Notes: generated by a model not told the origin, from the letters alone. Counted from the stretch's first letter, positions 1 through 23,525 are shown. The stretch is 27,737 nt of DNA from a virus (IMGVR_UViG_3300042350_006544:1-27737), one strand, 5' to 3'. Translations and numbers: made by a program.

Positions 1-228
1 ACTGATATGAGATTAGTAGCTGTTGACTGTGTTGCTGATCCATCGTGCCCCAAAGCATTTGTGAATGGTATTTTAGAGAGCAAACAGTTTGTTGTAGCAG
101 CAGATGGTTCACTTGAAGAATTCTTTGAAAAATTTGAAAATAGTCTTAAAAATTTACCCAGAAAGGAAGTTGAATCATTTTTAAAGGAGCAAATTCTTGG
201 TTTCTTTAAAATGTTAAAAACCAGTTAA
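1..228 (+). CDS. 21: Prohead core protease, C-terminal end (T4 gp21-like), 5'-partial
   Basis: The reading frame is open from the first base of the window (TD before the first Met), so this is the last ~75 residues of a gene that begins upstream; the ATG at 7 is internal. The stretch AVDCVADPSCPKAFVNGIL resembles the region after the catalytic core of T4-type prohead proteases, where a V-x-DPS-x-x-AFVNGI pattern is common. In T4 this serine protease matures the capsid by cutting scaffold, capsid and internal proteins after an (I/L)-x-E motif. Its place directly before core, scaffold and major capsid genes matches T4 order. The catalytic residues lie outside the window, so the call rests on this tail and on synteny. 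Confidence 0.72.
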   Translation, partial: TDMRLVAVDCVADPSCPKAFVNGILESKQFVVAADGSLEEFFEKFENSLKNLPRKEVESFLKEQILGFFKMLKTS

Positions 229-246
229 TTTTTAACTGAAAACAAC

Positions 247-257
247 TAAATAATTAT
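247..257 (+). promoter_or_regulatory. Late-type promoter TAAATA-N5-ATG
   Basis: TAAATA at 247-252 is followed by five bases and then the ATG at 258. In T4 the late element TATAAATA spans about -13 to -6, so +1 would fall on the A of the start codon. It lies in the short gap after the protease gene. Confidence 0.6.
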
Positions 258-569
258 ATGCCATTGAAATCAGGAAGCTCACAGAAAGTGATCAGTCAGA
301 ATGTTAAGACTGAAATGGATAAATTCAAGAAGACCGGTAAAATCGGAACATCTAAGCCTGAATCCAAAGCTGCAGCACAAAAACAGGCTGTTGCTATTGC
401 TCTTAAGAAAGCTGGCAAAAGCCAAGTTAGTGAGCAGCAAAATATAATTTCCTTTTTAAAAGCGGTTTCTCAGAAAAATTATTCTGAAGCAAATAAATAT
501 TTACAGGAAGTGGTTAATTCGAAGCTTAAAGCTAGAATAGAAGCTGCTTCCAAAAGCAAAATTTTTTAA
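258..569 (+). CDS. Small prohead core protein, DUF6496-like N-terminus
   Basis: A 103-residue protein with two parts. Residues ~1-55 (MPLKSGSSQKVISQNV, then a KQAVAIALKKAGK stretch) match the basic motif I associate with DUF6496 phage proteins. Residues ~62-97 (ISFLKAVSQKNYSEANKYLQ...) form an amphipathic helix of the FLxAV-x(4)-YxEA kind seen in small T4-type prohead core proteins such as gp67. It sits between protease and scaffold, ends 3 nt before the scaffold start and has no Shine-Dalgarno site, but carries a late promoter abutting its ATG. I infer a core component cleaved during maturation; the two-part architecture is my reading and not a searched result. Confidence 0.6.
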   Translation: MPLKSGSSQKVISQNVKTEMDKFKKTGKIGTSKPESKAAAQKQAVAIALKKAGKSQVSEQQNIISFLKAVSQKNYSEANKYLQEVVNSKLKARIEAASKSKIF

Positions 570-572
570 TTT

Positions 573-1460
573 ATGGAAACAAAAAACATCGTTAACATTC
601 TAAGAGAAGCAACCAAAGATATTCTCACTGAAGATATTCTTAAGGAAATTGAAACAGCTTTTAATGACACAGTCAATGAAAGAGTAACTATTCATGTTGA
701 AAAGGCACTAGCTGAACAGGATTCAGATTATTCCAATAAGCTAGAGAAGCTCTTAGAAGCTATTGATGCAGATCACACAGTAAAATTAAACAAAGTAGTA
801 CAAGCAGTTGACGCCGATCGCGCCAAGAAACTTGAAACTGTTGTTGAGAAGTATCAGACTGCTCTTAATGATGAAGCAGCAAAGTTTAAGACCAATTTAG
901 TAGATCAAATCAGCAACTATCTTGATTTGTATCTGGAAGAAAAACTTCCTACAAAGGAATTGCAAGAAGCAGTAAACAACAAGAGAGCCATTGAAATTCT
1001 AAATGAACTTCGCGGCACTCTCTCAGTTGATATGGCACTTGCTAAAGAGTCAATCCGCGACGCAGTCGTCGATGGAAAGACCAAATTAGATGAAGCTGCA
1101 AAGCAGCTTGAAGACGCCAATTCCAAGGTTACTTCTCTAACAGAGAGCCTTGAGAAGACAAGAGCTACATTAGTACTTGAACAGAAACTATCTGGTTTAA
1201 ATGCCGAAAAGAAAGAGTATATGAAAAAAATGCTCGACGGCAAGTCAGAAAAGTTTATTGTAGAGAACTTTAAGTATACACTTGGTCTTTTCGAGAAAAC
1301 CGAAGAAGAACGTCTCCAGAATCTAAAGAACGAGGCTGTCACTGAAACAGTATCAAAAGAAGTTGACAGACCCGTAATCGAGGAATCGAAACAGGAAGCA
1401 AAGTCTGCAAGTAATGAACCAGCATTTGGTCTTTACATGTCAGAGCTTGGTAAGTATTGA
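573..1460 (+). CDS. 22: Prohead scaffold / core protein (T4 gp22-like)
   Basis: A 295-residue, highly charged, almost wholly helical protein between protease and major capsid protein, where T4 gene 22 lies. Residues ~45-105 hold three ~18-residue imperfect repeats of the type KLEKLLEAIDAD / KLNKVVQAVDAD / KLETVVEKY, expected to form a coiled coil. A second coiled coil runs over ~165-200. The C-terminus (LYMSELGKY) is short and hydrophobic, as expected for the part of a scaffold that contacts the shell. In T4 the scaffold builds the prohead core and is degraded by gp21. Its start is 3 nt after the preceding stop, so translation is probably coupled; no Shine-Dalgarno site is visible. Confidence 0.8.
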   Translation: METKNIVNILREATKDILTEDILKEIETAFNDTVNERVTIHVEKALAEQDSDYSNKLEKLLEAIDADHTVKLNKVVQAVDADRAKKLETVVEKYQTALNDEAAKFKTNLVDQISNYLDLYLEEKLPTKELQEAVNNKRAIEILNELRGTLSVDMALAKESIRDAVVDGKTKLDEAAKQLEDANSKVTSLTESLEKTRATLVLEQKLSGLNAEKKEYMKKMLDGKSEKFIVENFKYTLGLFEKTEEERLQNLKNEAVTETVSKEVDRPVIEESKQEAKSASNEPAFGLYMSELGKY

Positions 1461-1492
1461 TTTCGCTTTCTGTTGAGGCAGATCCTGAACAG

Positions 1493-1533
1493 TAAATAAA
1501 GGTCGACATTAGTAATAGGAAATTTATACTATT
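1493..1533 (+). promoter_or_regulatory. Putative late promoter region of the major capsid gene
   Basis: TAAATA lies at 1493-1498, which would give a leader of about 30 nt. A degenerate TTTATA-CTATT directly abuts the ATG at 1534 with the 5-nt spacing seen elsewhere. CTATT is the sequence I recall following strong T4 late promoters. Which element is used cannot be told from sequence. Confidence 0.4.
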
Positions 1534-3072
1534 ATGGCAAAACAAATCCGTCCTACACAGGCATACATTGATGAGTCTCGCGCTCGTGTGTTGCTTGAGA
1601 AGTGGGGTCCAGTATTGGACTACTCTTCCAACAACGTAAGAGCAATCGAAGACGATCACACACGTCTCAATACCGCCATTCTCTTGGAAAACCAAGAAAA
1701 ATGGTGCTTTGAGGCTAACAACGCTTCCGGTGGTACTGCAGGCGGCCTACCTTATGGTCAGGCTGGCTCAGGCGTATTCGGTGGTGAAACAGGTGGCGCC
1801 GGTTCATTCGGCAACCAGTTCCCATCACAGAATGATAACGCATACGCCGCAGGCGATGCTCGTCTTCCGAAGATTCTCATCCCAATGATCAGACGTACGT
1901 TCCCTGAGTTGATCACTAACGAAATCGTTGGTGTTCAGCCCATGAGCGGCCCTGTCGGACTTGCTTTCGCACTTCGTTACAAGTATGAGCCTACCAACTT
2001 AGGTTATCAGTCTGGTTCGTTGGACGCAAGTTCATCATCCCAGTACTACAACAACCTAAGAGGTCTCTCTGCTAACCCTGAATTGGGTTACCAGTACCTC
2101 GACACAAGATTCACTGGTGCTTCGTCATCAGCCTTGTCCGGGGCCACAGGTTTCTTCCAGATGCTCGATCAAGATCGTGGCGTTGCTCAGTTGCTCAGCC
2201 AGTTTGAGTTAACAAGCAATATCCCACAGATCGTGGTCAGCTTTGAGAAGACTGCAGTTGAAGCTGGTACACGTAGACTCGCAGCTCGTTGGTCAGTTGA
2301 ACTCGAGCAGGACTTGAAGAACATGAACGGTATTGATATCGACACTGAGCTCACAAACGCTATGTCTTATGAGCTACAGGCCGAAATCGATCGTGAAATG
2401 ATCATCAGAATGATTCAGACAGCACTCAACGCCGGTTACGGCCAAGGGTTCTCAGTCTGGTCACCTGCTTCAGCAGACGGCCGTTGGCTCGTCGAGCGCA
2501 ATCGTGACTTCTACCAGAGACTCATCGTTGAGGCTAACCGTATCGCTGTACGTAACCGCCGTGGTTCAGCTAATTTCGTTGTTGCAACACCTCGTGTGTG
2601 CGCAATCCTCGAAATGCTACCTGAATTCCAGTGGGCACCAGTACAGGGTAATGTTAATACTCAGCCAGTCGGAGTTGCAAAAGTGGGTTCCCTCGCAGGT
2701 CGCTTCAACGTGTATCGTGATACACGCACAGAGGCACAGTTCGAAGCAAATGCTGGCGGTAATTTCGGTGGCTCGGGTCCATTCCCAGCCAACGGTGTTA
2801 CAGTCGCAAATACTCGTACAACACGTCTTGAATATGCTCTCCTTGGCTACAAGGGTCCGGAATTCTACGACACTGGTATCATCTATTGTCCGTACATTCC
2901 AGTCATGGTGCAGAGAACAATTGGTCCAAATGACTTCGCTCCACGCGTTGGTCTATTGACCCGCTATGGTGTTGTTGACAACATCTTTGGCGCTAATCTC
3001 TACTATCATGTCATTATCCTTCAGGGTCTTGGCACAGCATTCCTACCTGGTCAGCAAGCTGTTTACTTCTAA
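1534..3072 (+). CDS. 23: Major capsid protein (T4 gp23-like)
   Basis: A 512-residue protein with the hallmarks of the T4 gp23 family: RRTFPELITNEIVGVQPMSGP near residue 115, an ARWSVELEQDLKNMNGID segment near 250, EIDREMI near 285, GKYRVY-like RFNVYRDTRTEAQ near 390, and a C-terminal GYKGPEFYDTGIIYCPYIPVMVQRTIGPNDF. T4 gp23 is 521 aa and loses 65 residues to gp21. Here a comparable cut could follow E60 (WCFE, then ANNASGG, where a Gly-rich stretch begins). P3 would then be Cys and not Ile/Leu, so the site is only likely. GC content and codon use look higher than in neighbours, as expected for a highly expressed gene. A strong terminator follows. Confidence 0.96.
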   Translation: MAKQIRPTQAYIDESRARVLLEKWGPVLDYSSNNVRAIEDDHTRLNTAILLENQEKWCFEANNASGGTAGGLPYGQAGSGVFGGETGGAGSFGNQFPSQNDNAYAAGDARLPKILIPMIRRTFPELITNEIVGVQPMSGPVGLAFALRYKYEPTNLGYQSGSLDASSSSQYYNNLRGLSANPELGYQYLDTRFTGASSSALSGATGFFQMLDQDRGVAQLLSQFELTSNIPQIVVSFEKTAVEAGTRRLAARWSVELEQDLKNMNGIDIDTELTNAMSYELQAEIDREMIIRMIQTALNAGYGQGFSVWSPASADGRWLVERNRDFYQRLIVEANRIAVRNRRGSANFVVATPRVCAILEMLPEFQWAPVQGNVNTQPVGVAKVGSLAGRFNVYRDTRTEAQFEANAGGNFGGSGPFPANGVTVANTRTTRLEYALLGYKGPEFYDTGIIYCPYIPVMVQRTIGPNDFAPRVGLLTRYGVVDNIFGANLYYHVIILQGLGTAFLPGQQAVYF

Positions 3073-3149
3073 ACAAAGTACTCACTTCTGTCCTGATAGG
3101 CAGGGGATCAAAAGAAAATATTTTCACCTGGTCAGTCCCAGGAAATTTA

Positions 3150-3181
3150 AAAAAGGGCCTCTTGCGGGGCCCTTTTTTTTT
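3150..3181 (+). terminator. Rho-independent terminator after the capsid gene
   Basis: An A-run and AGGGCC, an eight-base loop, then GGCCCT and a run of nine T. The GC stem plus T-tract is a textbook intrinsic terminator about 80 nt after the capsid stop. Confidence 0.92.
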
Positions 3182-3223
3182 GGAAAAAAAACTATATAAT
3201 GGAAAAAAGTGTAAAATCTAGAA

Positions 3224-3235
3224 TAAATACTTTAT
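3224..3235 (+). promoter_or_regulatory. Late-type promoter TAAATA-N6-ATG
   Basis: AATAAATA ends at 3229 and the ATG follows after six bases (CTTTAT). The expected transcript would have a leader of at most one base. Confidence 0.6.
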
Positions 3236-3769
3236 ATGGCAACAACAGTAACAGCTCCTTTTTCTACTAATGCTACCAATACTGCTACATTCAACAGTGC
3301 AGTTTCTTCATTTACAGCTTATATTCCAGCTTCTGGTTTAATTGATAGTAATTTCCCAACAGGGGTTCTATCCGGCAGCAGCACAGTTTACAGTGGGTCT
3401 CTTTCATTTGTACTCACAGCCATAGCTGGTAACACCATTGCTGGTGGAAATACATCTGTGTTATTGACCCTGTCAGGTGCACCTGGTAATAATCTTTTCT
3501 ACGGCTTTGTCAAATCAAGCTCTTACATACCAACAACAAGAATAGCTACATTTGCTATTGGATTCTTTGGTTCTGATTTTATCAGCACAACCGTTAACCT
3601 ATCAGCTAACGGTGTTTCCAATGTGGTTGTTGCAGATCCAACTCTTACATCACCATTTGAAATAGCATTCCAATACGTACCAGGCTCTGACAATGATGTG
3701 CTTGGTGGCAATGTTTCTTACATACACACTGTATCAGACTTCCTCAGAAGACTGAATCTTAACGGCTAA
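3236..3769 (+). CDS. Unknown beta-rich protein, probably virion-associated
   Basis: A 177-residue protein rich in Ser, Thr, Ala, Val and Asn with few charged residues, alternating hydrophobic/polar strands and almost no predicted helix until the last ~15 residues (IHTVSDFLRRLNL). This composition is typical of phage surface or decoration proteins. It has its own late promoter and follows the major capsid gene and its terminator, which would suit a head decoration or other structural role, but I recognise no family. Its stop codon directly abuts the stop of queF on the other strand, with no bases between. Confidence 0.7.
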   Translation: MATTVTAPFSTNATNTATFNSAVSSFTAYIPASGLIDSNFPTGVLSGSSTVYSGSLSFVLTAIAGNTIAGGNTSVLLTLSGAPGNNLFYGFVKSSSYIPTTRIATFAIGFFGSDFISTTVNLSANGVSNVVVADPTLTSPFEIAFQYVPGSDNDVLGGNVSYIHTVSDFLRRLNLNG

Positions 3770-4684
3770 TTACTGCCGCGGTGTTTTAACAAAATACTTG
3801 TATTGATCCACAAGCACTTTATCTAGTAATTCTGCCTTGTTTGCTCTGGTAGGATTAATATCAATGCCACCTCTGCGCACATACAAGCATGATACTACAA
3901 GTTCTTCTGGTTCAAATCTGTCATAAATTCTCTTGTAAATTGTTTCACAAATTTCTTCATGAAAGTGACATTCGTCTCTGAATGATACAATGTACTTTAA
4001 TACAGAAGTTGTATTGAACAAATGCTTACCTTTGTAATGAATATAAACATCACCCCAATCCGGCTGCGATGTCACCCTGCAATTACTCTTCAATAGAGCA
4101 GAATGAAATCTCTGAACTCTTGACTCAGCAAGCAACTCAGTACTCAGCAAATTAGGATTCTCCTTATAATCTGCAGTCTCAATAGTTGTAACGTCAATGA
4201 GTTTCTCAAGAGTAGGATAAGAACCATTACTAAAGATAGGCGGATAATAAACACTATCATCAACTGCAGCGGTCAAACGAACATAGACCCGTACTTCTGT
4301 TTCTAATAGATTAGATAGATCAGTAGCAATTTTTGCTTGTAGCTCATTCAACACATGCACAACATTGCCGCTGAATACCTCCATGTTGAAAGAATTCATG
4401 TACAGCTTAATTGACTTGGATTCCACAATATATTTGTTGTTAGCAGGATACACAATCTTAGCTACAGCTGCAATGGGCATGCCGTGATCTGTTAAGCATG
4501 AAACTTCATATGCATTCCAGATATCATAACCTGCAAAGGGTGGTGCATCATCACTGATATCCAAGTGTTTTCTGTTATTAGCCCGGGGCTCTCTAACGAG
4601 AAGAGATGGATCATAGGTACTCTTGTATCCTGTTATTCTGCCCAGATGCTTTGATATGTTGCTGTTATCTAATTGCGTATTCAT
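3770..4684 (-). CDS. queF: NADPH-dependent 7-cyano-7-deazaguanine reductase (QueF, long form)
   Basis: QueF reduces preQ0 (7-cyano-7-deazaguanine) to preQ1 (7-aminomethyl-7-deazaguanine) with NADPH. This 304-residue protein has the two-domain, bacterial long-form layout (E. coli QueF is 282 aa). ESKSIKLYMNSFN at ~88-100 is the signature of the substrate-binding N-terminal T-fold. SNCRVTSQPDWGDV at ~200-213 carries the catalytic Cys202 and Asp209. FHEE at ~241-244 and RRGGIDINPTRAN at ~270-282 complete the C-terminal catalytic half. All key residues are present, so it should be active. It is the last gene of the modification operon, overlapping the kinase gene by 20 nt. It could serve queuosine salvage, but the DpdA-like gene upstream points to DNA modification. 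Confidence 0.95.
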   Translation of the reverse strand: MNTQLDNSNISKHLGRITGYKSTYDPSLLVREPRANNRKHLDISDDAPPFAGYDIWNAYEVSCLTDHGMPIAAVAKIVYPANNKYIVESKSIKLYMNSFNMEVFSGNVVHVLNELQAKIATDLSNLLETEVRVYVRLTAAVDDSVYYPPIFSNGSYPTLEKLIDVTTIETADYKENPNLLSTELLAESRVQRFHSALLKSNCRVTSQPDWGDVYIHYKGKHLFNTTSVLKYIVSFRDECHFHEEICETIYKRIYDRFEPEELVVSCLYVRRGGIDINPTRANKAELLDKVLVDQYKYFVKTPRQ

Positions 4685-5243
4685 TAAGTTTTATTTTAAT
4701 TGCTTCCATTCGATCTTCCACTGTTCCTTTTAAAATAGTTACCTTTCCCTTCAACCTTTCATCTGACAACCAAAAATTTTCATACTTATCAATAATTGCA
4801 TCTCTAAATTCTTTATTAACACTTCTCTCACCATCATCAACTAACGGAACATCATGAGGACTTGGATAGAAAATATGATCATACCTATGAATATGATTCA
4901 CATAATACATCAATCCCAAGCTATTGGACACAGGAAAATCGTTTAATCTATCCGTTGCAAAATAACTCGTAAACACCATGCCATCCATCAGACAGCGATC
5001 ATGCAATATGCCTTGAAATCCAAACCCCTTATAGTTATAAAACAAATTCTCATACTCTTTATTGAGAATTAAAGTTTGAGTTACATCATTTGCACCAGCT
5101 TCATTAATATCAACTCCATGCTCACGTTTAATTAGCCTCGTAACTTCATCTATATAGCAAAGCTTTGAACCGTAGTACTCCTTACACTTCTTTAAAAGAG
5201 TAGTCTTACCTGAACACTGTGGACCTGTAAAAGTAAAAATCAT
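4665..5243 (-). CDS. P-loop kinase / ATPase (AAA_28- or nucleotide-kinase-like)
   Basis: A 192-residue protein beginning MIFTFTGPQCSGKTTLL, a Walker A motif (GPQCSGKTT, residues 6-14). ILHDRCLMDGMVF at ~85-97 looks like the Walker B/DR-x(3)-D element of nucleoside or NadR-type kinases. Its length fits the AAA_28 and deoxynucleoside-kinase groups; the substrate cannot be read from sequence. I chose the ATG at 5243, which overlaps the upstream stop in an ATGA, over a GTG nine bases earlier. Position between Nmad1 and QueF suggests it phosphorylates a nucleotide or base-modification intermediate; that is inference. Confidence 0.75.
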   Translation of the reverse strand: MIFTFTGPQCSGKTTLLKKCKEYYGSKLCYIDEVTRLIKREHGVDINEAGANDVTQTLILNKEYENLFYNYKGFGFQGILHDRCLMDGMVFTSYFATDRLNDFPVSNSLGLMYYVNHIHRYDHIFYPSPHDVPLVDDGERSVNKEFRDAIIDKYENFWLSDERLKGKVTILKGTVEDRMEAIKIKLNEYAIR

Positions 5244-5587
5244 TTGCCCCACTTACCATTATATACTATTTCTGCAATAATGCCATACACAGAAGAGTCT
5301 CTAAATGCATCCATGACAGGTTCATTAGCCGAATTCATGGCTTTCTTTTTTAAGACTAAATTAATTAGACGCTGAATTTTGTCATTGAGACGCACCACAA
5401 TGGCAGAAACCGCTGCAAATTTGTCCTCTTGTTTCACCAGATCAGAACCTAAAGAAATATTGCCTGGACCATAATCAAACTGTTTTTTGCAAAATGTTTC
5501 GTACAATTCAGCTTGTATTTTTTGAAACTCTTTGCATGTTTCTGGAAAATTTTTCTCAACGTATTTAACAATGTCTTCTTTGTTCAT
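5240..5587 (-). CDS. Nucleotide modification associated domain 1 (Nmad1/DUF1599) protein
   Basis: A 115-residue protein with the DUF1599 pattern: FCKKQFDYGPGNISLG at ~32-47, a helix with LNDKIQRLINLV at ~67-78, then NEPVMDAFRDSSVYGIIAEIVYNGKW at ~88-113, where an acidic D-x(3)-D-x(4)-Y-x-I-I helix is expected. The family is named for its frequent company with DNA and nucleotide modification genes in phages. Biochemical role is not established as far as I know. It overlaps both neighbours by 4 nt (ATGA), so it is translated with the deazaguanine genes. Confidence 0.8.
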   Translation of the reverse strand: MNKEDIVKYVEKNFPETCKEFQKIQAELYETFCKKQFDYGPGNISLGSDLVKQEDKFAAVSAIVVRLNDKIQRLINLVLKKKAMNSANEPVMDAFRDSSVYGIIAEIVYNGKWGK

Positions 5588-6543
5588 AATCTTACCCCGT
5601 ATGGTACTTTACTTAAATTGAGCGCGCCAAGATTGCAACCACCAGCATAACTAATTGCACTCTGCAAGTCTTGCTTTATCTCTTCCATCTTCTCGAGATA
5701 TGTAAATGTATCAGTTTCCATAAGCTTCATTGTACCCTCAATATTTTTCTTTTCAATTTTATTTTGTACACTTGCAGAACCAAAGTATTGCTTGTATCGC
5801 CTCCCATTTGCATCTTTAACGAGCGGTGCAGGACTATCGGAGCAAGCAGCAAATACAGATCCACACATCACCATGCTCGCACCAGCTACAAGAGCTTTAG
5901 CAATATCACCATTGCAGCGCACCCCACCGTCAGCAATAATAGGTACATTTCTATCTTTAGCACATTCTATTATGCAGCTAAACATGGGATATGTAAATCC
6001 TGTTTTATCTTTAGTAGTACACGCATACCCACCGCCAATGCCGGCTTTTATAGCATCAGCACCAACATTATGCAAATATTCAACACCCTGAAAAGTTGCA
6101 ACATTACCTGCAATGATCTTTGCATTAGGTAGCACTTGCTTAATATGTTTAATTTGATCTGCTACTTTTGAATGATGACCATGTGCAACATCAATCGTTA
6201 TAAAGTCAACTCTCATCATGCTCTGTGCGATGGATGTTAATAAGCTCCTATCTTTTTGCTGTATTCCTACGCTTATGGAGATGGTATGAAACTCTTGAAG
6301 ATTAGCATAGCGTACAAAGTTGTTTATATCTTCATCAAACCTATGCATGATATAGAAATAGCCATGCTTATCCAGGAGCTTGCATATATCCACATCAATA
6401 CAACACTTCATATTAGCAGGTACAACTGGTAGCTTAAATGTACGAGATCCAAATATTATATCTGTATCAATCTCTGCTCTGGATTGCACTGAGTTAAAAT
6501 TCGGCTTGAGAAAAACATTTTCATAATGCAAAGATAAATCCAT
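5584..6543 (-). CDS. guaC: GMP reductase-like enzyme (IMPDH/GMPR family)
   Basis: A 319-residue TIM-barrel protein. YENVFLKPNF at ~7-16, VVPANMKCCID at ~40-50, AIKAGIGGGYACTTKDKTGFTYPMF at ~164-188 with catalytic Cys175, and IIADGGVRCNGDIAKALVAGASMVMCG at ~202-228 are all present. The CTT-K-x-KTG-x-x-YP segment is more like GMP reductase than IMP dehydrogenase, and no CBS pair interrupts the barrel. GMP reductase converts GMP plus NADPH to IMP and ammonia. The substrate loop reads GIGGGYAC and not GIGPGSVC, so specificity should be confirmed. It starts 1 nt after the formyltransferase stop. I infer a role in disposing of guanine freed by DNA base exchange, or in reshaping the purine pool. Confidence 0.85.
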   Translation of the reverse strand: MDLSLHYENVFLKPNFNSVQSRAEIDTDIIFGSRTFKLPVVPANMKCCIDVDICKLLDKHGYFYIMHRFDEDINNFVRYANLQEFHTISISVGIQQKDRSLLTSIAQSMMRVDFITIDVAHGHHSKVADQIKHIKQVLPNAKIIAGNVATFQGVEYLHNVGADAIKAGIGGGYACTTKDKTGFTYPMFSCIIECAKDRNVPIIADGGVRCNGDIAKALVAGASMVMCGSVFAACSDSPAPLVKDANGRRYKQYFGSASVQNKIEKKNIEGTMKLMETDTFTYLEKMEEIKQDLQSAISYAGGCNLGALNLSKVPYGVRL

Positions 6544-6544
6544 A

Positions 6545-7114
6545 TTAGCGCTCTAAAATTTTATATGCTATGAAAAAGCTTTTCCACAGATCAAGTGCAG
6601 TATCTCGTAATACTCCATAAACACCATCTAATGACAGCCCCTCAATACTTGTGCCCTGGCTCATTAGTATCTCTCCCTCATCAACACCCGGTACCACTCT
6701 ATGTATTACACACCCTGCTAATTTATACCCCTCAGTAAAAGCTCTTTCTTGTGGATTGAATCCCTTTAATGCAGGATACCTATCAATTAACCCGGGATGC
6801 AAGTTATACATTTCATATTTCTCACAAATCTCTTTGGGGATAATTCTTAGAAATCCGTGCAACGTTACTACAGGGTTTTTAAAGCAGCTCAAAGCATTCT
6901 CATAATCACTTATTGCTGGCTTCTGTGGCAGTTGAATCCAGATATTTTCATTAAGTTTTTGTGATCTAAATTTTGTTATTTCAATTAACTTTGCATTTGT
7001 TTTTACGTGACCCTGCTTATTTGTTACAATACAATCAGGGTACATGCCAAGTGCATTACTGAGATCGTTTATCTCAGTACCTGTTTGTGAGAAAAATGTT
7101 ACCCAAGGTCTCAT
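6545..7114 (-). CDS. Formyltransferase (PurN / formyl_trans_N fold)
   Basis: A 189-residue protein with the catalytic triad of 10-formyltetrahydrofolate-dependent transferases: YNLHPGLIDRYPALKGFNPQERAF at ~103-126 supplies Asn104 and His106, and VVPGVDEGEIL at ~140-150 supplies Asp145. TLHGFLRIIPKEI at ~84-96 is the usual strand and turn before the triad. Length and motifs fit GAR transformylase-like or amine-formylating enzymes. It overlaps the DpdA-like gene by 4 nt (ATGA). Since QueF in the same operon makes a primary amine (preQ1), the simplest reading is formylation of the preQ1 aminomethyl group, free or in DNA. I recall formyl-preQ1 being reported in phage DNA. A purine-synthesis role is the alternative. 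Confidence 0.88.
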   Translation of the reverse strand: MRPWVTFFSQTGTEINDLSNALGMYPDCIVTNKQGHVKTNAKLIEITKFRSQKLNENIWIQLPQKPAISDYENALSCFKNPVVTLHGFLRIIPKEICEKYEMYNLHPGLIDRYPALKGFNPQERAFTEGYKLAGCVIHRVVPGVDEGEILMSQGTSIEGLSLDGVYGVLRDTALDLWKSFFIAYKILER

Positions 7115-7923
7115 CTACGAACAATCTTCTTAAACATTGTAGTGTTATATTTTACAAGTTCAAGCTGATCATCTGTAAAATTATGTGTAATGAGGTCAGC
7201 TAATTTAGTTGATGGTTTATTATCCAATCCATAATCAGCATCATACTTCAATCCATGTATAGCAGCAACAACGGGATTGCTAGTATCGCAACTAACAATA
7301 TTCCAAATATTTCTATCCACATAGTATCTAAACTCCTTAGCTAAAGAACAACCAAGTAAATGATGAGGTTTGCTCCAATTCCATACCCCGTTACTTATTA
7401 AATCATTAATAAAGCGCTGACGGCCTGTACACCATTTCTCGAGGTGCGATTTACCTTCACCAGTAATTTGGTAATAACTAAAATCAAAACTAATTGCAAT
7501 CATATCAGCATTGTCGGCCATAAACTTGTAGCATTCTTTCAATTCATGCCAAGTTTTACCTTGTACAGCGCCAATGGCTTTTGTTAAAAAGCTGTCCTTA
7601 ATGTCACTTGTATAACTCTCAAATGCCTTGAAGCTTTGCATTGTGTCTTGAGCATCTTCTAGAACATCTGGCACAATGAACATATTTGGCTTAATTTCTT
7701 TAGCTTTCACCCAGAACTCACGACTATCAAAAGCTTTGCCCAATTCAAAAATTGAATTATCAAGCAGCACTTCTCTATTGTAAATAGATCTAGCTGATTT
7801 AAAAAAGTCATTATAAACAGGATATTGATCCAGAAGATGTACAAGACAATAGTCAAAATCATTATAGTCTCTAGAGAGATCAAGTATAGACACAGGAGAT
7901 TCATGAGATACTTTCATTAGCAT
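7111..7923 (-). CDS. dpdA: DpdA-like DNA guanine transglycosylase (TGT-related)
   Basis: A 270-residue protein that I read as a phage DpdA, the tRNA-guanine-transglycosylase relative that swaps guanine in DNA for a 7-deazaguanine base. Supporting segments: EVLLDNSIFELG at ~51-62 with Asp55 where TGT has its general-base Asp, MFIVPDVLED at ~81-90, AIGAVQGKTWHEL at ~117-128, HHLLGCSLAKEFRYY at ~187-201 and NIVSCDTSNPV at ~208-218, where Asp213 would be the nucleophile. No zinc site is evident, as in many phage versions. I start at ATG 7923 (MLMKV) and not the upstream in-frame ATG at 7938, because a consensus promoter with 6-nt spacing abuts it. It is the first gene of the operon. Confidence is in the fold and context; the exact base inserted is inference. 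Confidence 0.82.
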   Translation of the reverse strand: MLMKVSHESPVSILDLSRDYNDFDYCLVHLLDQYPVYNDFFKSARSIYNREVLLDNSIFELGKAFDSREFWVKAKEIKPNMFIVPDVLEDAQDTMQSFKAFESYTSDIKDSFLTKAIGAVQGKTWHELKECYKFMADNADMIAISFDFSYYQITGEGKSHLEKWCTGRQRFINDLISNGVWNWSKPHHLLGCSLAKEFRYYVDRNIWNIVSCDTSNPVVAAIHGLKYDADYGLDNKPSTKLADLITHNFTDDQLELVKYNTTMFKKIVRR

Positions 7924-13769: not shown

Positions 13770-13950
13770 AAGCTTTTTTGAAGCTAAGATATCACCTTTT
13801 GTAGCACGCACACAACAGACAGCTGCAAGCCCAGGTACAAACATAGGCATGACATCTGGTGACTTGTTGAACACATTTCCTAGCTCAATCAAGCAAATTT
13901 CTATTGCATTGCCTAAAAAGAAAAAAATTAAACTGCAGAAAAAAGTTTAA
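13756..13950 (+). CDS. Small protein with capsid-targeting-like N-terminus
   Basis: A 64-residue protein starting MKSFKSFFEAKIS, close to the T4 capsid targeting sequence MKTYQEFIAEA, where gp21 cuts after the Glu. The rest is polar with a very basic C-terminus (LPKKKKIKLQKK) that could bind DNA. I infer an internal head protein trimmed after FFE (P3 is Phe and not Ile/Leu). It overlaps the fibre gene by 14 nt at its start and the lysozyme gene tail-to-tail by 23 nt at its end. No Shine-Dalgarno site is visible. Confidence 0.65.
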   Translation: MKSFKSFFEAKISPFVARTQQTAASPGTNIGMTSGDLLNTFPSSIKQISIALPKKKKIKLQKKV

Positions 13951-14506
13951 TAATACCCTGAGCTCTTCTGCCCACTTGTGTGGCCCATTTGCTCTTTTGC
14001 AATTCACCAGCAGCTGAATTGTAATCACCACTAGCTATATGTTCTTTTGTTTTAACAAACTTACTGAGTCGAGTATACCCCAAATTAAAGGATAAATCTA
14101 GAATACCTAATTTGATATTCTTTGGTAGACTATCAAATTGTGGCACCCATTTCTTAGCATCTTGATAGGCAATTCCCAATGTGATACGAAATATATCTTT
14201 TATTTGATCGTCGGTCAATGCTTGTTTGCCGCTCAAGATAGCATCATAATCTGCACCAGCTTGTGCTGCTATCTTCTTTGCATCAGGCCTTAACAGATTT
14301 AGACCAATTCCTATGGTAGGTATGCCGCGTGAATCATTATAAACATAAGGGCGGTACCCTTCATGGTCTTTTATGAACGCATAAACATCATCAAATGTTA
14401 GCTTGGTATTAACCACTCTCTGTATCATAGCAGGAGGTGGTTCTGCAGGTGGAGGAGCATCACCAACTGCTTCCAGTATTTGTTTTACGGCTTTATAAAA
14501 ACGCAC
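13928..14506 (-). CDS. GH24 lysozyme (T4-type) with capsid-targeting-like N-terminus
   Basis: A 192-residue muramidase that cuts the MurNAc-GlcNAc bond of peptidoglycan. IKDHEGYRPYVYNDSRGIPTIGIGLN at ~45-70 holds the triad Glu49, Asp58, Thr64 with the 9- and 6-residue spacing of T4 lysozyme (E11, D20, T26). The C-terminal ATQVGRRAQGIIKLF fits the family. A 35-residue extension precedes the enzyme: MRFYKAVKQILEA, then Pro-rich APPPAEPPPA. The first 13 residues look like a capsid-targeting sequence ending ILE before Ala, an (I/L)-x-E gp21 site. No signal peptide or membrane segment is present. GTG 14506 is chosen from the abutting late promoter. Confidence 0.92.
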   Translation of the reverse strand: MRFYKAVKQILEAVGDAPPPAEPPPAMIQRVVNTKLTFDDVYAFIKDHEGYRPYVYNDSRGIPTIGIGLNLLRPDAKKIAAQAGADYDAILSGKQALTDDQIKDIFRITLGIAYQDAKKWVPQFDSLPKNIKLGILDLSFNLGYTRLSKFVKTKEHIASGDYNSAAGELQKSKWATQVGRRAQGIIKLFSAV

Positions 14507-14517
14507 ATAAATATTTA
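14507..14517 (-). promoter_or_regulatory. Late-type promoter TAAATA-N5-GTG
   Basis: Minus strand TAAATA (14517-14512), TTTAT, GTG at 14506. The promoter overlaps the last codon and stop of the next gene (14515). Confidence 0.7.
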
Positions 14518-15087
14518 ATTAAGAACAGCTACTTTTACGATCTTAGGGTTGCTGTTAGCGAAATTTATGGCATCACTCTTCTTAACAAAAAACACATCAA
14601 TTACCGGTAATTTTCCCCCAGAAGCTGTCTTACTAACAACAGCACTGCCTGTGTCTACAGCTTTAACTAATCCCACGTTAGGAATTAACACTTCCTTGGT
14701 ATATGGTATGATTCTGGGGTCTACTGCAATTGAATCTCCTTGTTTGAGTGTATGACCAGTAGAACTCCTCAATCTTCTGCTATCTGCATCAGTACCACTG
14801 CCTCGTGCCCAATACACCGTGAGTCTCACAGTTAAAATTTTAAGATTGGAGCCAGCTGTCTTAGGAATAAGCTCCCCATTAAATTTGATACCATTACTTT
14901 CAATTTTTAGTTTTTTAGCCAATAGAGCCTCTTTCTGCGGCGTTATATTTTTTAATTTATTCTTCACGCACAGAATGCTCAATGGAGATTTAATTTCAGC
15001 ATACGAAAATGTACTAAAAGATGCTGTGGATGCAATTAATGCGATTATTAGCATGATTAGCTTGTTTGTTTTTGTGTTTGTTTTCAT
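14515..15087 (-). CDS. Secreted 3D-domain (double-psi beta-barrel) cell-wall enzyme
   Basis: A 190-residue protein with an N-terminal signal peptide: basic MKTNTKTNK, hydrophobic core LIMLIIALIASTASFSTF, likely cleavage after SYA. Residues ~95-180 form a 3D domain: TVYWARGSGTDADSRRLRSSTG, GDSIAVDPRIIPYTKEVLIPNVG, KAVDTGSAV and IDVFF, with the three conserved Asp. Related domains occur in MltA-type lytic transglycosylases and resuscitation factors, so a periplasmic peptidoglycan hydrolase acting in lysis is likely. I start at ATG 15087, where the signal peptide begins. A TTG at 15114 in frame is less likely. A late promoter lies about 70 nt upstream. Confidence 0.85.
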   Translation of the reverse strand: MKTNTKTNKLIMLIIALIASTASFSTFSYAEIKSPLSILCVKNKLKNITPQKEALLAKKLKIESNGIKFNGELIPKTAGSNLKILTVRLTVYWARGSGTDADSRRLRSSTGHTLKQGDSIAVDPRIIPYTKEVLIPNVGLVKAVDTGSAVVSKTASGGKLPVIDVFFVKKSDAINFANSNPKIVKVAVLN

Positions 15088-15116
15088 AAGAGTAAGAAGT
15101 GCCAAATGTGGCAACG

Positions 15117-15146: not shown

Positions 15147-15172
15147 TGTAACATTATTTATTCTATGTTACA
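15147..15172 (-). promoter_or_regulatory. Hairpin whose loop holds a stop codon and a late-type promoter
   Basis: Arms TGTAACAT and ATGTTACA (15147-15154 and 15165-15172) enclose ten bases. On the minus strand the loop reads AGAATAAATA, which contains the TAA stop of the phosphoribosyltransferase gene and a TAAATA late element that would start transcription near 15150. Confidence 0.5.
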
Positions 15173-15610
15173 GGGTTCCCAAGGGAAGGCAAGCCATGTT
15201 TTTTGGCTAAATTCTTTAACAAAGAAGTCTGGCCTAAATAATGTCTGCTTTTTTACATACAAACATGCTGCTTTAATCTCTTTAGACTCAAGAATGCCCA
15301 CAGTATCAATGAAGCTACTGCCAGTGTCTGAAAGATCATCCATGATAATAACTTTATTGAGTTTTTCGAAACTTGGCACTTGATAGATTTCTTTAACTAT
15401 CTGCTCTTGATTCAGATACGATTTATAGCCCAAGCTAAATACTTTCTCAATACCGAGCAAATGACTCAGCATGACTGCAGGCACCAGTCCACCGCGACTC
15501 AGACCCAAAATGTTGTATTCTTTATATTCAGGTAGCTGCTCTTTGATTTGATTAGCTAGCTTGCTACAATCATTGCCAATTGTTTTCCAGCTTAGTTTTC
15601 TAATGCTCAT
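15158..15610 (-). CDS. Purine phosphoribosyltransferase (xanthine-guanine type, Gpt-like)
   Basis: A 150-residue type I PRTase (E. coli Gpt is 152 aa). LGLSRGGLVPAVMLSHLLG at ~35-53 is the PRPP/pyrophosphate loop. VIIMDDLSDTGSS at ~87-99 is the PRPP-binding motif with its two Asp. WLAFPWE at ~139-145 matches the W-x-x-FPWE end of xanthine-guanine enzymes. The expected reaction is guanine or xanthine plus PRPP to GMP or XMP. It has its own early-type leaderless promoter, the same type as the deazaguanine operon 7.7 kb away, so both are probably made together. I infer salvage of guanine displaced by DpdA. A hypoxanthine or other base preference cannot be excluded. Confidence 0.88.
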   Translation of the reverse strand: MSIRKLSWKTIGNDCSKLANQIKEQLPEYKEYNILGLSRGGLVPAVMLSHLLGIEKVFSLGYKSYLNQEQIVKEIYQVPSFEKLNKVIIMDDLSDTGSSFIDTVGILESKEIKAACLYVKKQTLFRPDFFVKEFSQKTWLAFPWEPCNIE

Positions 15611-18413: not shown

Positions 18414-20789
18414 ATGGCAACATTTGCAAGTTTTAATAGAGCCGATTCACCAGCAGCAGCAGACTTCATTGTTGGATACAATGCTGCAGGTACTGCAGAA
18501 CAACGCACCACAGTAAATGATCTACTCAGCACAGGGCTTGCATTGTATAATAGCGATAAATGGAATTCAAATTTTACTACTACCAATAGTAACAGCGCCA
18601 ATTGGTCTTCTGCTTATACCACCCTTAATGCTGCTAGTGCAGTAACAATAGTTGATGGTGGTAATACCAGAAGTGCTAACATAGCTATAGGAGCTAGAGA
18701 TGCATATAATGTTGCTTTAAGAACAAATAATGCAAACAGGGTTTGGATTTTGAGCTCTGGAGAAGTAGGCATAGGGCCCTCTCTTTCAACTTTAGTTAAT
18801 TTAATAAATTCATCCAGCTCAGATGCTCCTAGATTGACAGTTGGTGGTACCATCTCTTCCACAGGTAATCTATTTTCTTCTGGCTTTGCTACGTTTGTAA
18901 AAAATGCATCCTATCCAACATTAAGCTCCACTCTTACCAATAATTCTGGTTATTATAATTCTCTGGGTACATTTGCATCTCCTGGTGGTTTTATTATTAA
19001 AGGCCATTCCCCCACATATGATAATTCTCCACAAAACCTGCCCGGAAAAGGAACTTATGGTTTATGGATACAAAATGTAGATAATTTTGACCCAGGTACA
19101 ACATTTGCAAGTGATGGGCGCGGTCAAGTAACACATGCCATGGCATTCCGCGCAGGTATTAATAATTTCACTGCTGGTGCAGATCATAATCATGTGCAAT
19201 GGCAGGGTGCACCTTCTAACAATACACAAGCATGGCAAATGACCAATGGTGGTTCACTGGGTGTGTACGGATATGGTAACAACACATACTCACAAAGATT
19301 CTTAGTACATACATTACCTCAATATCAGATATCTACTACCATCACAGCTACCAGTGGTAATTTTGATACCAGAAACGCCAACTTAGTAACTGGTACAGAC
19401 AGAGTCTCTGGTGTTGTTATTTTGCTAGATGCATACTCTGCACCAGCAAATTATAATCTCATCACTCCCGGATCTGTAGTGGGTGTTACTTTGAATCCCG
19501 GATTGGTTGGATTGGTGGCTGTTATTTATAACACACAGTGCACTCAAGTATCAGCAAATGCTGCTGGTCTTACAGCTTATCAGCTTGATTTCTTTATTGG
19601 CAATGGTAACAACTGGGTGCCAGCTCAAAGAGGCATCCAGCCCATTAATCTACAGTCACGAACCAATGGTGGTAACCCTGGTGTCAACTTGATCACCAGT
19701 CAAGTGGGCAGCAATCCAAGCACTCAATATGTGGGCATCACGGGCAGTTATAGAAACATGAACAAGCATGCACTGGCTCGATTCACCACTGCATCCATTC
19801 TTACTGCATTCAAACCAGGCTCACCATTAACCTTGTGGATACCCACTGCCATGCCATCCACATCTCCCATTGGCACCGGCTTCATCACATCAGATAAAAT
19901 TTCTACTTTTGCACAAGGCACATTCCCCACTGGTGTGCGCACTGGATACTTTGATGCTTATGTGATCAATGTGAGTGGCACAGACATGGAATTTGCATTG
20001 TGTAACTTGATGGATTCATATGGATTTGAAAACAGATTCTGGCCCATATCCGCCACAGGTAACGCTGGTTGGGTGCTGTATGGTGGCACACAAGACACTG
20101 TGCATCGCCCCACATTTGGTACTGCAGGCTTCTACTTTGAAAGAGAGCCATGGTACTTTGATGGTACCAATTTCTTGAGTGGTGGCATGGTCAAGTGTGT
20201 GGGCTTGGGTACATCTGAAGTGTATGGAAATTTCTCATATGGATTAGGGTTCCGTGGTGCAGTACTAGGTCAGAAGTCTGGCACATTTGCCGGTGATTAC
20301 AATGCAGTGTATGGTGACAATTCAGTAGCACTGGGTGGTAGCAATCTCATTTCTACAAGTGGCAATCAAGTGGTCATTGGCACATTCAATGATCCTAACA
20401 CCAATTCATTGTTTGTAGTGGGCAGTGGCACGGCAGATAACAACAGAAAGAATGCATTTGAAGTCACTGGAGATGGTGATATCAAGACATCCAGATTCAA
20501 TATCAGAAGCTCCTCTCTCATTGCAGCTGCTGGTAGCAATCAAGCTACTGCCACAGAAATAACAACAGACATTGTTGCTGTAACTGGTGGCACAGGTGGC
20601 ATAAGACTGCCCATTACTGGTGGAGGCCATGTCATATTTGTGCAGAACATTGCACCTTCCAATACTGTAGTGTATCCTCCAGTGGGTGGAAGCTTCCGTG
20701 TATTTGGTGCAAGCTACACCTTTACTGGTGAAAGTGCAGTCTGGTTCATAGCTCTGAGTGCCAATGGCTACTCAGTAAGATTTGCCTAA
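18414..20789 (+). CDS. Long tail fibre / adhesin
   Basis: A 791-residue protein with a GGAG site six bases before ATG 18414. An in-frame TTG at 18402 is rejected. The N-terminus (MATFASFNRADSPAAADFIV, GYNAAGTAEQRTTVNDLL) is an attachment motif. The body is Gly/Asn/Thr-rich beta structure. Near residues 610-690, AGDYNAVYGDNSVALGGSN, GNQVVIGTFND and NAFEVTGDGDIKTSRF resemble YadA-head-like and fibre collar repeats found before tip domains. The last ~80 residues (TEITTDIVAVTGG, GGHVIFVQN, SAVWFIALSANGYSVRF) look like a beta-sandwich tip. No S74 chaperone is present. It is probably the main receptor-binding fibre. Confidence 0.85.
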   Translation: MATFASFNRADSPAAADFIVGYNAAGTAEQRTTVNDLLSTGLALYNSDKWNSNFTTTNSNSANWSSAYTTLNAASAVTIVDGGNTRSANIAIGARDAYNVALRTNNANRVWILSSGEVGIGPSLSTLVNLINSSSSDAPRLTVGGTISSTGNLFSSGFATFVKNASYPTLSSTLTNNSGYYNSLGTFASPGGFIIKGHSPTYDNSPQNLPGKGTYGLWIQNVDNFDPGTTFASDGRGQVTHAMAFRAGINNFTAGADHNHVQWQGAPSNNTQAWQMTNGGSLGVYGYGNNTYSQRFLVHTLPQYQISTTITATSGNFDTRNANLVTGTDRVSGVVILLDAYSAPANYNLITPGSVVGVTLNPGLVGLVAVIYNTQCTQVSANAAGLTAYQLDFFIGNGNNWVPAQRGIQPINLQSRTNGGNPGVNLITSQVGSNPSTQYVGITGSYRNMNKHALARFTTASILTAFKPGSPLTLWIPTAMPSTSPIGTGFITSDKISTFAQGTFPTGVRTGYFDAYVINVSGTDMEFALCNLMDSYGFENRFWPISATGNAGWVLYGGTQDTVHRPTFGTAGFYFEREPWYFDGTNFLSGGMVKCVGLGTSEVYGNFSYGLGFRGAVLGQKSGTFAGDYNAVYGDNSVALGGSNLISTSGNQVVIGTFNDPNTNSLFVVGSGTADNNRKNAFEVTGDGDIKTSRFNIRSSSLIAAAGSNQATATEITTDIVAVTGGTGGIRLPITGGGHVIFVQNIAPSNTVVYPPVGGSFRVFGASYTFTGESAVWFIALSANGYSVRFA

Positions 20790-20793
20790 CGCT

Positions 20794-21393
20794 ATGCCTA
20801 ATGTACCCAATTATAATGACTTGCAGCGACAGCAGAGAATAGCTCTGGATAACAACAGTAGCTACAAAGCCGTGATGCAGCGCCTGGGCAACCCACAAGC
20901 TGTACTGTACAATCCCATTGTGGAAACAACAAGAGTCTTCAATGCAGCAGGTGCATTGATTGCTGCAGTTGCAGGCAATATTCCTCTGTTTTGGGTTCAG
21001 AATCAAACTGCAGTAACTGCAGTCTCTTTTGCCAGTGACAACAGCATAACAAGCATTGGAACAGGTGCATTCTATGGCACCAGCATAACTTCAGCCATCA
21101 TACCCATGGGTGTGACTACCCTTGGCGGGCAATCATTCTCATTTTGTACTAGCTTGACCAGTGTCACTATTCCCAGCAGCGTTACTCGCATTGACGAACT
21201 AGTGTTTGGAGCTTGCACCAATTTGAGTGCAGTGAATTGTTTCACCACGCGAACAGCTTTTACTAATTTTGCTGTGTTTAATGGTACTGCTAGTCCGTTA
21301 ACTATTCGTGTGCGCGAATCTGATGGTACTTGGACTGCAGGCAATCAAAGCTTCCAAGGCAATGCCAATGTGAATGTGATAAAAAACCTGTAA
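20794..21393 (+). CDS. Tail adhesin with BspA-type leucine-rich repeats
   Basis: A 199-residue protein from ATG 20794. Residues ~1-36 (MPNVPNYNDLQRQQRIALDN, SSYKAVMQRLGNPQ) are the shared cassette module. Residues ~72-145 contain LRR_5/BspA-type repeats: ITSIGTGAFYGTSITSAIIP, VTTLGGQSFSFCTSLTSVTI, and VTRIDELVFGACTNLSAV. BspA repeats are used as adhesins by bacteria and protists. Start is 4 nt after the fibre stop, so it belongs to the same transcript. A role in host binding is likely. Confidence 0.82.
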   Translation: MPNVPNYNDLQRQQRIALDNNSSYKAVMQRLGNPQAVLYNPIVETTRVFNAAGALIAAVAGNIPLFWVQNQTAVTAVSFASDNSITSIGTGAFYGTSITSAIIPMGVTTLGGQSFSFCTSLTSVTIPSSVTRIDELVFGACTNLSAVNCFTTRTAFTNFAVFNGTASPLTIRVRESDGTWTAGNQSFQGNANVNVIKNL

Positions 21394-22812: not shown

Positions 22813-22860
22813 TAACAAACTCAATGCAGCCACCATCATGCCTAATGCAATGTATTCCAT
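22795..22860 (-). CDS. 21-aa membrane micropeptide
   Basis: Reads MEYIALGMMVAALSLLLTAH plus Y. It is one hydrophobic helix. Its ATG overlaps the stop of the SprT-like gene (TAATG), so it could be translated by coupling. It may be an accident of AT-rich sequence, but the frame is entirely membrane-like. Confidence 0.45.
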   Translation of the reverse strand: MEYIALGMMVAALSLLLTAHY

Positions 22861-23525
22861 TAGACTGTCTCCGCATGATGCATCACTGCACCCTCTGACA
22901 CATAGCTCTGTAACAAATGCTCCACAAGCTCTCTTAGCGTACCTGACTCATACTGACCCTCTGCCTCTGAAGCCAAGGTGCCATCAATGGCAATGAACCT
23001 CTTGTGATTCTTCTTCACAATGCTCACCCGCTCTTCAGTCACACGGTACACATGAAAGGGATTCTTATCACCTTTGCAATACTTGCTCTTGTACTTCTTC
23101 ACCATGCTAGCAGCCTTCTCATCCAGAGACGTACGAGCATATCCTTTGTTCTTCACTTTCTCTACCTTCAAGCCAAATGATTCAGCTTTGCTCTTGAAGT
23201 GTTTGTTATGGTATTGGTTCACATTGCAATCAACGACGTTGGCCACATTGTTGGCATAATGCACCATCTCATGAATGATGGTCTCACAAATGTCTTCTAC
23301 TGAACGCTTCAAGGTATCAGCAGTAATATTAATCTCAGGCAGAGTCTTCTTGCCATCTTTCCAGCGCCCTTGCCAATACCATCCATAGTAGCTCTGACGT
23401 CCGCGGTTAGGGATAAGCGTGAATACTGGGTTGTCCAATTGGGTATCGAGCTCTGCATTGAAGAACTCAAATGCTTCTACTAGTTTGTCTGTTACTGCGC
23501 CTGTGATGTTGGTTGTGTTACTCAT
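22860..23525 (-). CDS. SprT-like zinc metalloprotease
   Basis: A 221-residue protein. ICETIIHEMVHYANNVA at ~79-95 has the HE-x-x-H zinc/catalytic motif. QYHNKHFKSKAESFGLKVEK at ~104-123 holds the third ligand region (H-x-x-x-F-x-x-x-A-x-x-x-GL) typical of SprT/WLM-like enzymes. YCKGDKNPFHVYRV at ~150 replaces the usual zinc-ribbon tail. SprT-family proteins digest proteins crosslinked to or bound on DNA, so the phage enzyme may clear DNA-protein obstacles or a host target. The ATG follows a GGAG-like site at 14 bases and overlaps the upstream stop. Confidence 0.85.
   Translation of the reverse strand: MSNTTNITGAVTDKLVEAFEFFNAELDTQLDNPVFTLIPNRGRQSYYGWYWQGRWKDGKKTLPEINITADTLKRSVEDICETIIHEMVHYANNVANVVDCNVNQYHNKHFKSKAESFGLKVEKVKNKGYARTSLDEKAASMVKKYKSKYCKGDKNPFHVYRVTEERVSIVKKNHKRFIAIDGTLASEAEGQYESGTLRELVEHLLQSYVSEGAVMHHAETV

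Follow-up and report, generated by a model that had tools for sequence, protein, structure and literature searches.

A candidate operon for formylated 7-deazaguanine DNA in an uncultured T4-like phage

Here, we describe a six-gene operon in the IMG/VR virus record IMGVR_UViG_3300042350_006544:1-27737 (hereafter the window, i.e. the whole 27.7-kb stretch analysed). Judging from its gene content and a structure model, the operon quite probably yields DNA in which 7-(formylamino)methyl-7-deazaguanine (fdPreQ1) replaces guanine. The source is a T4-like phage, as indicated by the Gp23 major capsid protein encoded at 1534-3072 (PF07068, E 5e-87). This modification is rare and already known from cultured phages, to which the window operon adds an uncultured member. 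An earlier note on this DNA had predicted such a formyl-preQ1 operon, and its prediction gains support from the tRNA-guanine transglycosylase (TGT) fold of the DpdA-like protein, the intact catalytic triad and lost purine-synthesis substrate site of the formyltransferase, the association of this enzyme with QueF and DpdA, and the corresponding gene set of the Flavobacterium phage vB_FspM_immuto (hereafter immuto).

The six genes run almost without gaps on the minus strand, from 7923 to 3770, in the order DpdA-like transglycosylase, formyltransferase, GMP reductase, 115-amino-acid (aa) protein, P-loop kinase, and QueF (Table 1). Their five junctions are, in the same order, a 4-nt overlap (ATGA), a 1-nt gap, two 4-nt overlaps, and a 20-nt overlap. 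This gene order is kept in dozens of independent viral contigs, thereby excluding a chance arrangement. Gene calls and family matches place the DpdA-like, formyltransferase, and QueF genes where the earlier note had put them, while the GMP reductase, the DUF1599-like protein, and the kinase had been missed. The proposed translational coupling of the three genes holds for DpdA and the formyltransferase, which share the ATGA overlap, whereas QueF is not coupled to them directly, being separated from them by three genes, albeit within the same gapless run.

Table 1 Features of the predicted DNA-modification operon and a related gene in the window
Feature	Coordinates	Strand	Size and basis
DpdA (DpdA3-like) DNA guanine transglycosylase, predicted	7111..7923	-	270 aa; AlphaFold fold, invariant Asp
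DpdN-like formyltransferase, PurN fold	6545..7114	-	189 aa; PF00551 E 7e-15
GMP reductase (GuaC type)	5584..6543	-	319 aa; NF003966, PDB 1ypf
115-aa helical protein, distant DUF1599 / nucleotide-modification-associated relative	5240..5587	-	phrog_1485 E 2e-11
P-loop (d)NMP-kinase-like, thymidylate-kinase related	4665..5243	-	192 aa; PF13521 E 1e-12, phrog_2107 E 3e-17
QueF, preQ0 nitrile reductase, two-domain form	3770..4684	-	304 aa; PF14819 E 9e-34, PF14489 E 6e-22
Xanthine/guanine phosphoribosyltransferase-like, outside operon	15158..15610	-	PF00156 E 3e-12

Sequence-only searches of Pfam, NCBIfam, and PDB with the DpdA-like protein returned nothing meaningful, and a structure model was therefore needed. 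The AlphaFold model, built from 78 homologues, reached a mean predicted local distance difference test (pLDDT) score of 93 and a predicted template modelling (TM) score of 0.90; all of its 50 best matches in PDB were TGTs (E 1.8e-9, TM score about 0.7). The earlier note had let its reading depend on a TGT/DpdA fold of this protein, and a TGT fold is what was modelled. The two predicted catalytic residues, Asp55 (LDNSIFELG) and Asp213 (DTSNP), are invariant among the 78 homologues and match in spacing D89 (D-x3-F) and D264 (D-x3-P) of E. coli Tgt; the same motifs were aligned, weakly (probability 20), when the DpdA profile was compared with E. coli Tgt by hhalign. Thus, the protein resembles bacterial Tgt in its fold, two catalytic aspartates, and VQG and LLG motifs, but is about 100 residues shorter, has no match to the Pfam TGT family (PF01702), and lacks the zinc motif CxCxxC of tRNA TGTs, which was found in none of 157 DpdA homologues. 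The isoelectric point was uninformative because E. coli Tgt is acidic too. In a tblastn search of 50,697 phage records, the annotated DpdA of immuto and the enzyme of the Campylobacter CP220-type phages showed 45% and 46% identity to the window protein, respectively, and a Weizmannia phage gave one further, weak match. These data suggest that the window protein is a DNA guanine transglycosylase, probably of the DpdA3 subclass, that would exchange bases in DNA.

Both QueF and the TGT fold also belong to the tRNA queuosine pathway, and the operon might accordingly boost this pathway by acting on host or phage tRNA instead of DNA. We regard this as extremely improbable, given a transglycosylase without the Pfam TGT match and the zinc motif, the lack of a known formyltransferase counterpart in queuosine synthesis, and annotated DpdA relatives that are the protein of immuto and the CP220-type enzyme of phages with fully modified DNA (PMC8306585).

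The formyltransferase belongs to the PurN fold, and its triad Asn104/His106/Asp145 is whole in 65 of 66 homologues (in E. coli PurN numbering, 66/66 retain N106 and H108, and 65/66 retain D144), in agreement with the intact N/H/D triad read earlier. Two further PurN positions, N13 and E173, which contact glycinamide ribonucleotide (GAR) in PurN structures, are replaced by Glu in 65/66 and by Ala, Ser, or Gly in 66/66 homologues, respectively. By sequence, then, this is an enzyme that has retained the fold and catalytic residues and altered the substrate site; the loss of these residues makes a role in purine synthesis unlikely and offers a sequence signature that separates the formyltransferase from that pathway. 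The formyltransferase of immuto is 45% identical to that of the window. The closest relative in 84,980 bacterial and archaeal genomes lies on a phage-like contig (L182), where it too has a DpdA as its partner; nearly all other matches listed are confined to the conserved half of the protein and resemble ordinary PurN. In viral contigs, at least 590 stretches encode relatives, some of which may be ordinary PurN-type enzymes. Uncultured phages frequently carry the operon, so that formylated deazaguanine DNA may be common beyond the cultured ones.

The neighbourhood of DpdA was compared across 85 non-redundant viral loci that carry DpdA and enough downstream sequence. The kinase and QueF both stand beside DpdA in 84 of them, L082 being the exception; the formyltransferase is present in 72, accompanied in 71 of these by QueF and the kinase next to DpdA, and a second, overlapping sample of loci gave 43/44. 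The remaining 13 loci are without the formyltransferase and retain QueF and the kinase, which fits formylation as a last, optional step after QueF. Along the DpdA tree, the formyltransferase label changes twice, compared with a mean of 11.4 changes for shuffled labels. These counts also bear on the idea that the formyltransferase gene is an auxiliary metabolic gene of the PurN type, boosting purine synthesis and lying by DpdA and QueF through coincidence. Such an origin would agree with the PurN fold (PF00551) and with the annotated PurN genes of cyanophages such as P-SSM2; the linkage in 71 of 72 loci, the disappearance of the GAR-binding N13 and E173 from nearly all homologues, and a score of 48.1 bits with the NCBIfam PurN model, far below its cut-off of 150.1, make it very improbable.

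Several loci differ from the window in gene content. L052 and L054-L073 encode DpdA, the kinase, and QueF without the formyltransferase, and are predicted to make dPreQ1 instead of fdPreQ1. A Trp_halogenase gene lies between DpdA and the formyltransferase in L019 (4008-5585) and L122 (8419-10002) (PF04820, E 5e-79 and 2e-75). In both contigs it overlaps the start of the formyltransferase gene, and in L122 the stop of DpdA as well; L019 additionally has an AsnB-like amidotransferase gene. These genes possibly serve extra tailoring of the base, or are passengers. A SPASM radical SAM gene is found between the kinase and QueF in L007 (13446-14765) and L030 (12566-13891), and L053 (9236-10497) carries a LOG/lysine-decarboxylase-like gene (PF03641) and a dGTP_diPhyd_N-type gene between the formyltransferase and the kinase. 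Homing-endonuclease-like genes separate DpdA from the formyltransferase in L077 (8428-9180; a weak GIY-YIG match, below cut-off), L143 (9225-9815; clustering with that of L077), and L148 (9211-9990; similar by eye only). In the 4.7-kb contig L139, where DpdA was not seen, a sugar-nucleotidyltransferase-like gene (173-1063) takes its place upstream of the formyltransferase, the 115-aa protein, the kinase, and QueF.

QueF of the window shares 38% identity with its E. coli counterpart and scores above the Pfam cut-offs. Its catalytic residues Cys190, Asp197, His229, and Glu230, as well as the NADPH motif ESKS, are kept in 140 of 140 homologues; this conservation speaks for a nitrile reductase rather than for QueF-L, an amidinotransferase. 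QueF and QueF-L are hard to separate by similarity alone, and dPreQ1 is carried by phages with such QueF/QueF-L genes (Hutinet 2019, PMC6884629). As the earlier note had stated, no FolE, QueC, QueD, or QueE gene was seen in the 27.7-kb window; all four lie elsewhere in the genomes of near relatives. Among 20 long relatives, QueD was found in 16, QueC in 18, and FolE in 16. A 217-kb relative has FolE, QueD, and a QueE-like radical SAM protein (PHROG QueE-like, E 9e-45) grouped near 61-66 kb, a plain QueC without a GAT domain at 85 kb (TIGR00364, above cut-off), and DpdA near 38 kb. With these genes present in relatives, preQ0 is most likely phage-made, and the genes for it most likely lie elsewhere in the genome of the window's phage.

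From the observed gene content, fold, catalytic residues, and synteny of the operon, we infer which reactions take place and in what order, as well as the product and degree of replacement. First, preQ0 would be made by phage-encoded FolE, QueD, QueE, and QueC located elsewhere in the genome, and QueF would reduce its nitrile to the primary amine of preQ1. The TGT-fold DpdA would swap guanine for the 7-deazaguanine base by double displacement involving the two aspartates. The DpdN-like enzyme would transfer a formyl group, presumably from 10-formyltetrahydrofolate by the rule of its family, to the nitrogen of the aminomethyl group, with DNA or the free base as its substrate. The GMP reductase, together with the guanine phosphoribosyltransferase encoded elsewhere in the window, would probably process the freed guanine or push guanine nucleotides toward inosine monophosphate (IMP).

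The closest known arrangement is that of immuto (NC_055915), in which DpdA, the formyltransferase, a thymidylate-kinase-like gene, and QueF follow in identical order. Unlike the window, immuto has QueD, QueE, FolE, and a phosphoribosyltransferase next to its DpdA, and PolA after its QueF; the window operon, on the other hand, includes the GMP reductase and the 115-aa gene and has no preQ0 genes nearby. Cui et al. (NAR 51:9214) reportedly described, in 2023, 2'-deoxy-7-(formylamino)methyl-7-deazaguanine in phage DNA, and are said to have predicted that DpdN is a dPreQ1 formyltransferase and to have defined the DpdA3 class, with complete replacement. The phages reported there share with the window the predicted formyltransferase and, by prediction, the formylated base; they are cultured, whereas the window belongs to an uncultured clade with three additional genes in the operon and a predicted product.

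Some points weigh against formylated DNA as the product. The link between the immuto formyltransferase and the published modification is presumptive. QueF falls short of the curated NCBIfam model TIGR03138, a near miss (265.6 vs 293.45 bits). Moreover, two loci, L082 (a 17-kb fragment) and L182, combine DpdA and the formyltransferase with no QueF in the available sequence. The latter, a phage-like contig in a Clostridiales metagenome-assembled genome bin, encodes MazG, DpdA, the formyltransferase, and a family-A DNA polymerase consecutively (182-4391); the kinase was likewise not seen in its available sequence.

The Campylobacter phages CP220 and CPt10, which make dADG, have a 46% identical DpdA adjoining a thymidylate-kinase-like gene, but their product is an amide and neither a formyltransferase nor QueF stands beside DpdA. 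In these phages, 100% of deoxyguanosine (dG) is replaced (PMC8306585). More generally, dpdA and the modification have been linked to restriction-enzyme resistance (Hutinet 2019, PMC6884629).

The less expected part of the operon is its steady kinase partner together with accessory guanine-nucleotide enzymes, all of putative role; the purine-handling enzymes may serve to sustain the supply for base exchange. The GMP reductase barely passes NF003966 (344.3 bits, cut-off 344) and does not reach TIGR01306 (305.1 vs 465.65); it matches the GMP reductase PDB 1ypf with E 3e-76, and its catalytic loop GGGYACTTKDKTG was identified by sequence. The gene lies inside the operon or a few kb upstream across much of the window's clade, but immuto, CP220, and those formyltransferase-free relatives that were tested yielded none. 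The enzyme probably removes GMP as IMP. The phosphoribosyltransferase-like protein matches purine/XGPRT structures in PDB (E 2e-21), and 16 of 20 long contigs related to the window encode relatives of it; the two enzymes together could salvage the guanine released by base exchange and shift it toward IMP. The 115-aa protein shows 34% identity to phage proteins annotated as DUF1599 or nucleotide modification associated, and its model is four-helical (pLDDT 87); searching PDB with this model gave no fold match at E 0.001, sequence searches of Pfam and PDB gave nothing meaningful, and no relation to the MazG-like or dGTP-hydrolase neighbours in other lineages could be detected. The thymidylate-kinase-like gene accompanies this DpdA class whatever the tailoring, including in the amide-making Campylobacter phages. 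The idea that this kinase is exclusive to DpdA phages was weakened, as the CP220 and immuto kinase queries also match about 89 Streptomyces phages.

A question raised by these neighbours is whether the base might be exchanged at the nucleotide level before replication, with DpdA acting on dG nucleotides, the kinase re-phosphorylating the modified deoxynucleoside monophosphate, and the polymerase incorporating it until replacement is complete, a logic similar to that of the Z-genome enzymes PurZ/DatZ/MazZ. Such a route would fit a kinase beside DpdA in 84/85 loci and also in CP220, with its 100% replaced dG, and the absence of the TGT zinc motif from all 157 DpdA homologues; moreover, clusters in several lineages hold genes whose products may have (d)guanine nucleotides as substrates, namely GMP reductase, PRA-PH/MazG-like, HD+AAA, dGTP_diPhyd_N, MazG, PolA, and LOG-type ones. 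These hydrolase neighbours are patchy, however: searches for MazG and PF18909 found no partner uniform among the long relatives, with PF18909 in 3 of 23 records. TGT-fold enzymes are known for polynucleotide substrates, and Campylobacter phage infections reportedly contained no dADG phosphates, from which post-replicative insertion is said to have been concluded. In addition, the Streptomyces phages with kinase relatives have no DpdA annotated in the stretch examined, and a second CP220 kinase copy lies beside a dUTPase, so that some members of the family may simply be dTMP kinases. We therefore consider the nucleotide-level route unlikely, and it is similarly doubtful that the GMP reductase or nucleotide hydrolases lower competing guanine nucleotides while this DpdA class and the kinase make a modified deoxynucleoside triphosphate. 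If true, the route would explain complete dG replacement and contradict the view of insertion as an invariably post-replicative event. The kinase neighbour, and the guanine-nucleotide enzymes of several lineages, make complete guanine replacement in some phages a testable question.

Elsewhere in the window, adjoining phage lysozyme (PF00959) and 3D-domain (PF06725) genes at 13928-15114 likely form a lysis pair, a small protein encoded at 20782-21393 contains a BspA-type leucine-rich repeat (PF13306, E 1e-16), and a protein of the SprT-like metalloprotease family is encoded at 22860-23525 (PF10263, E 5e-7).

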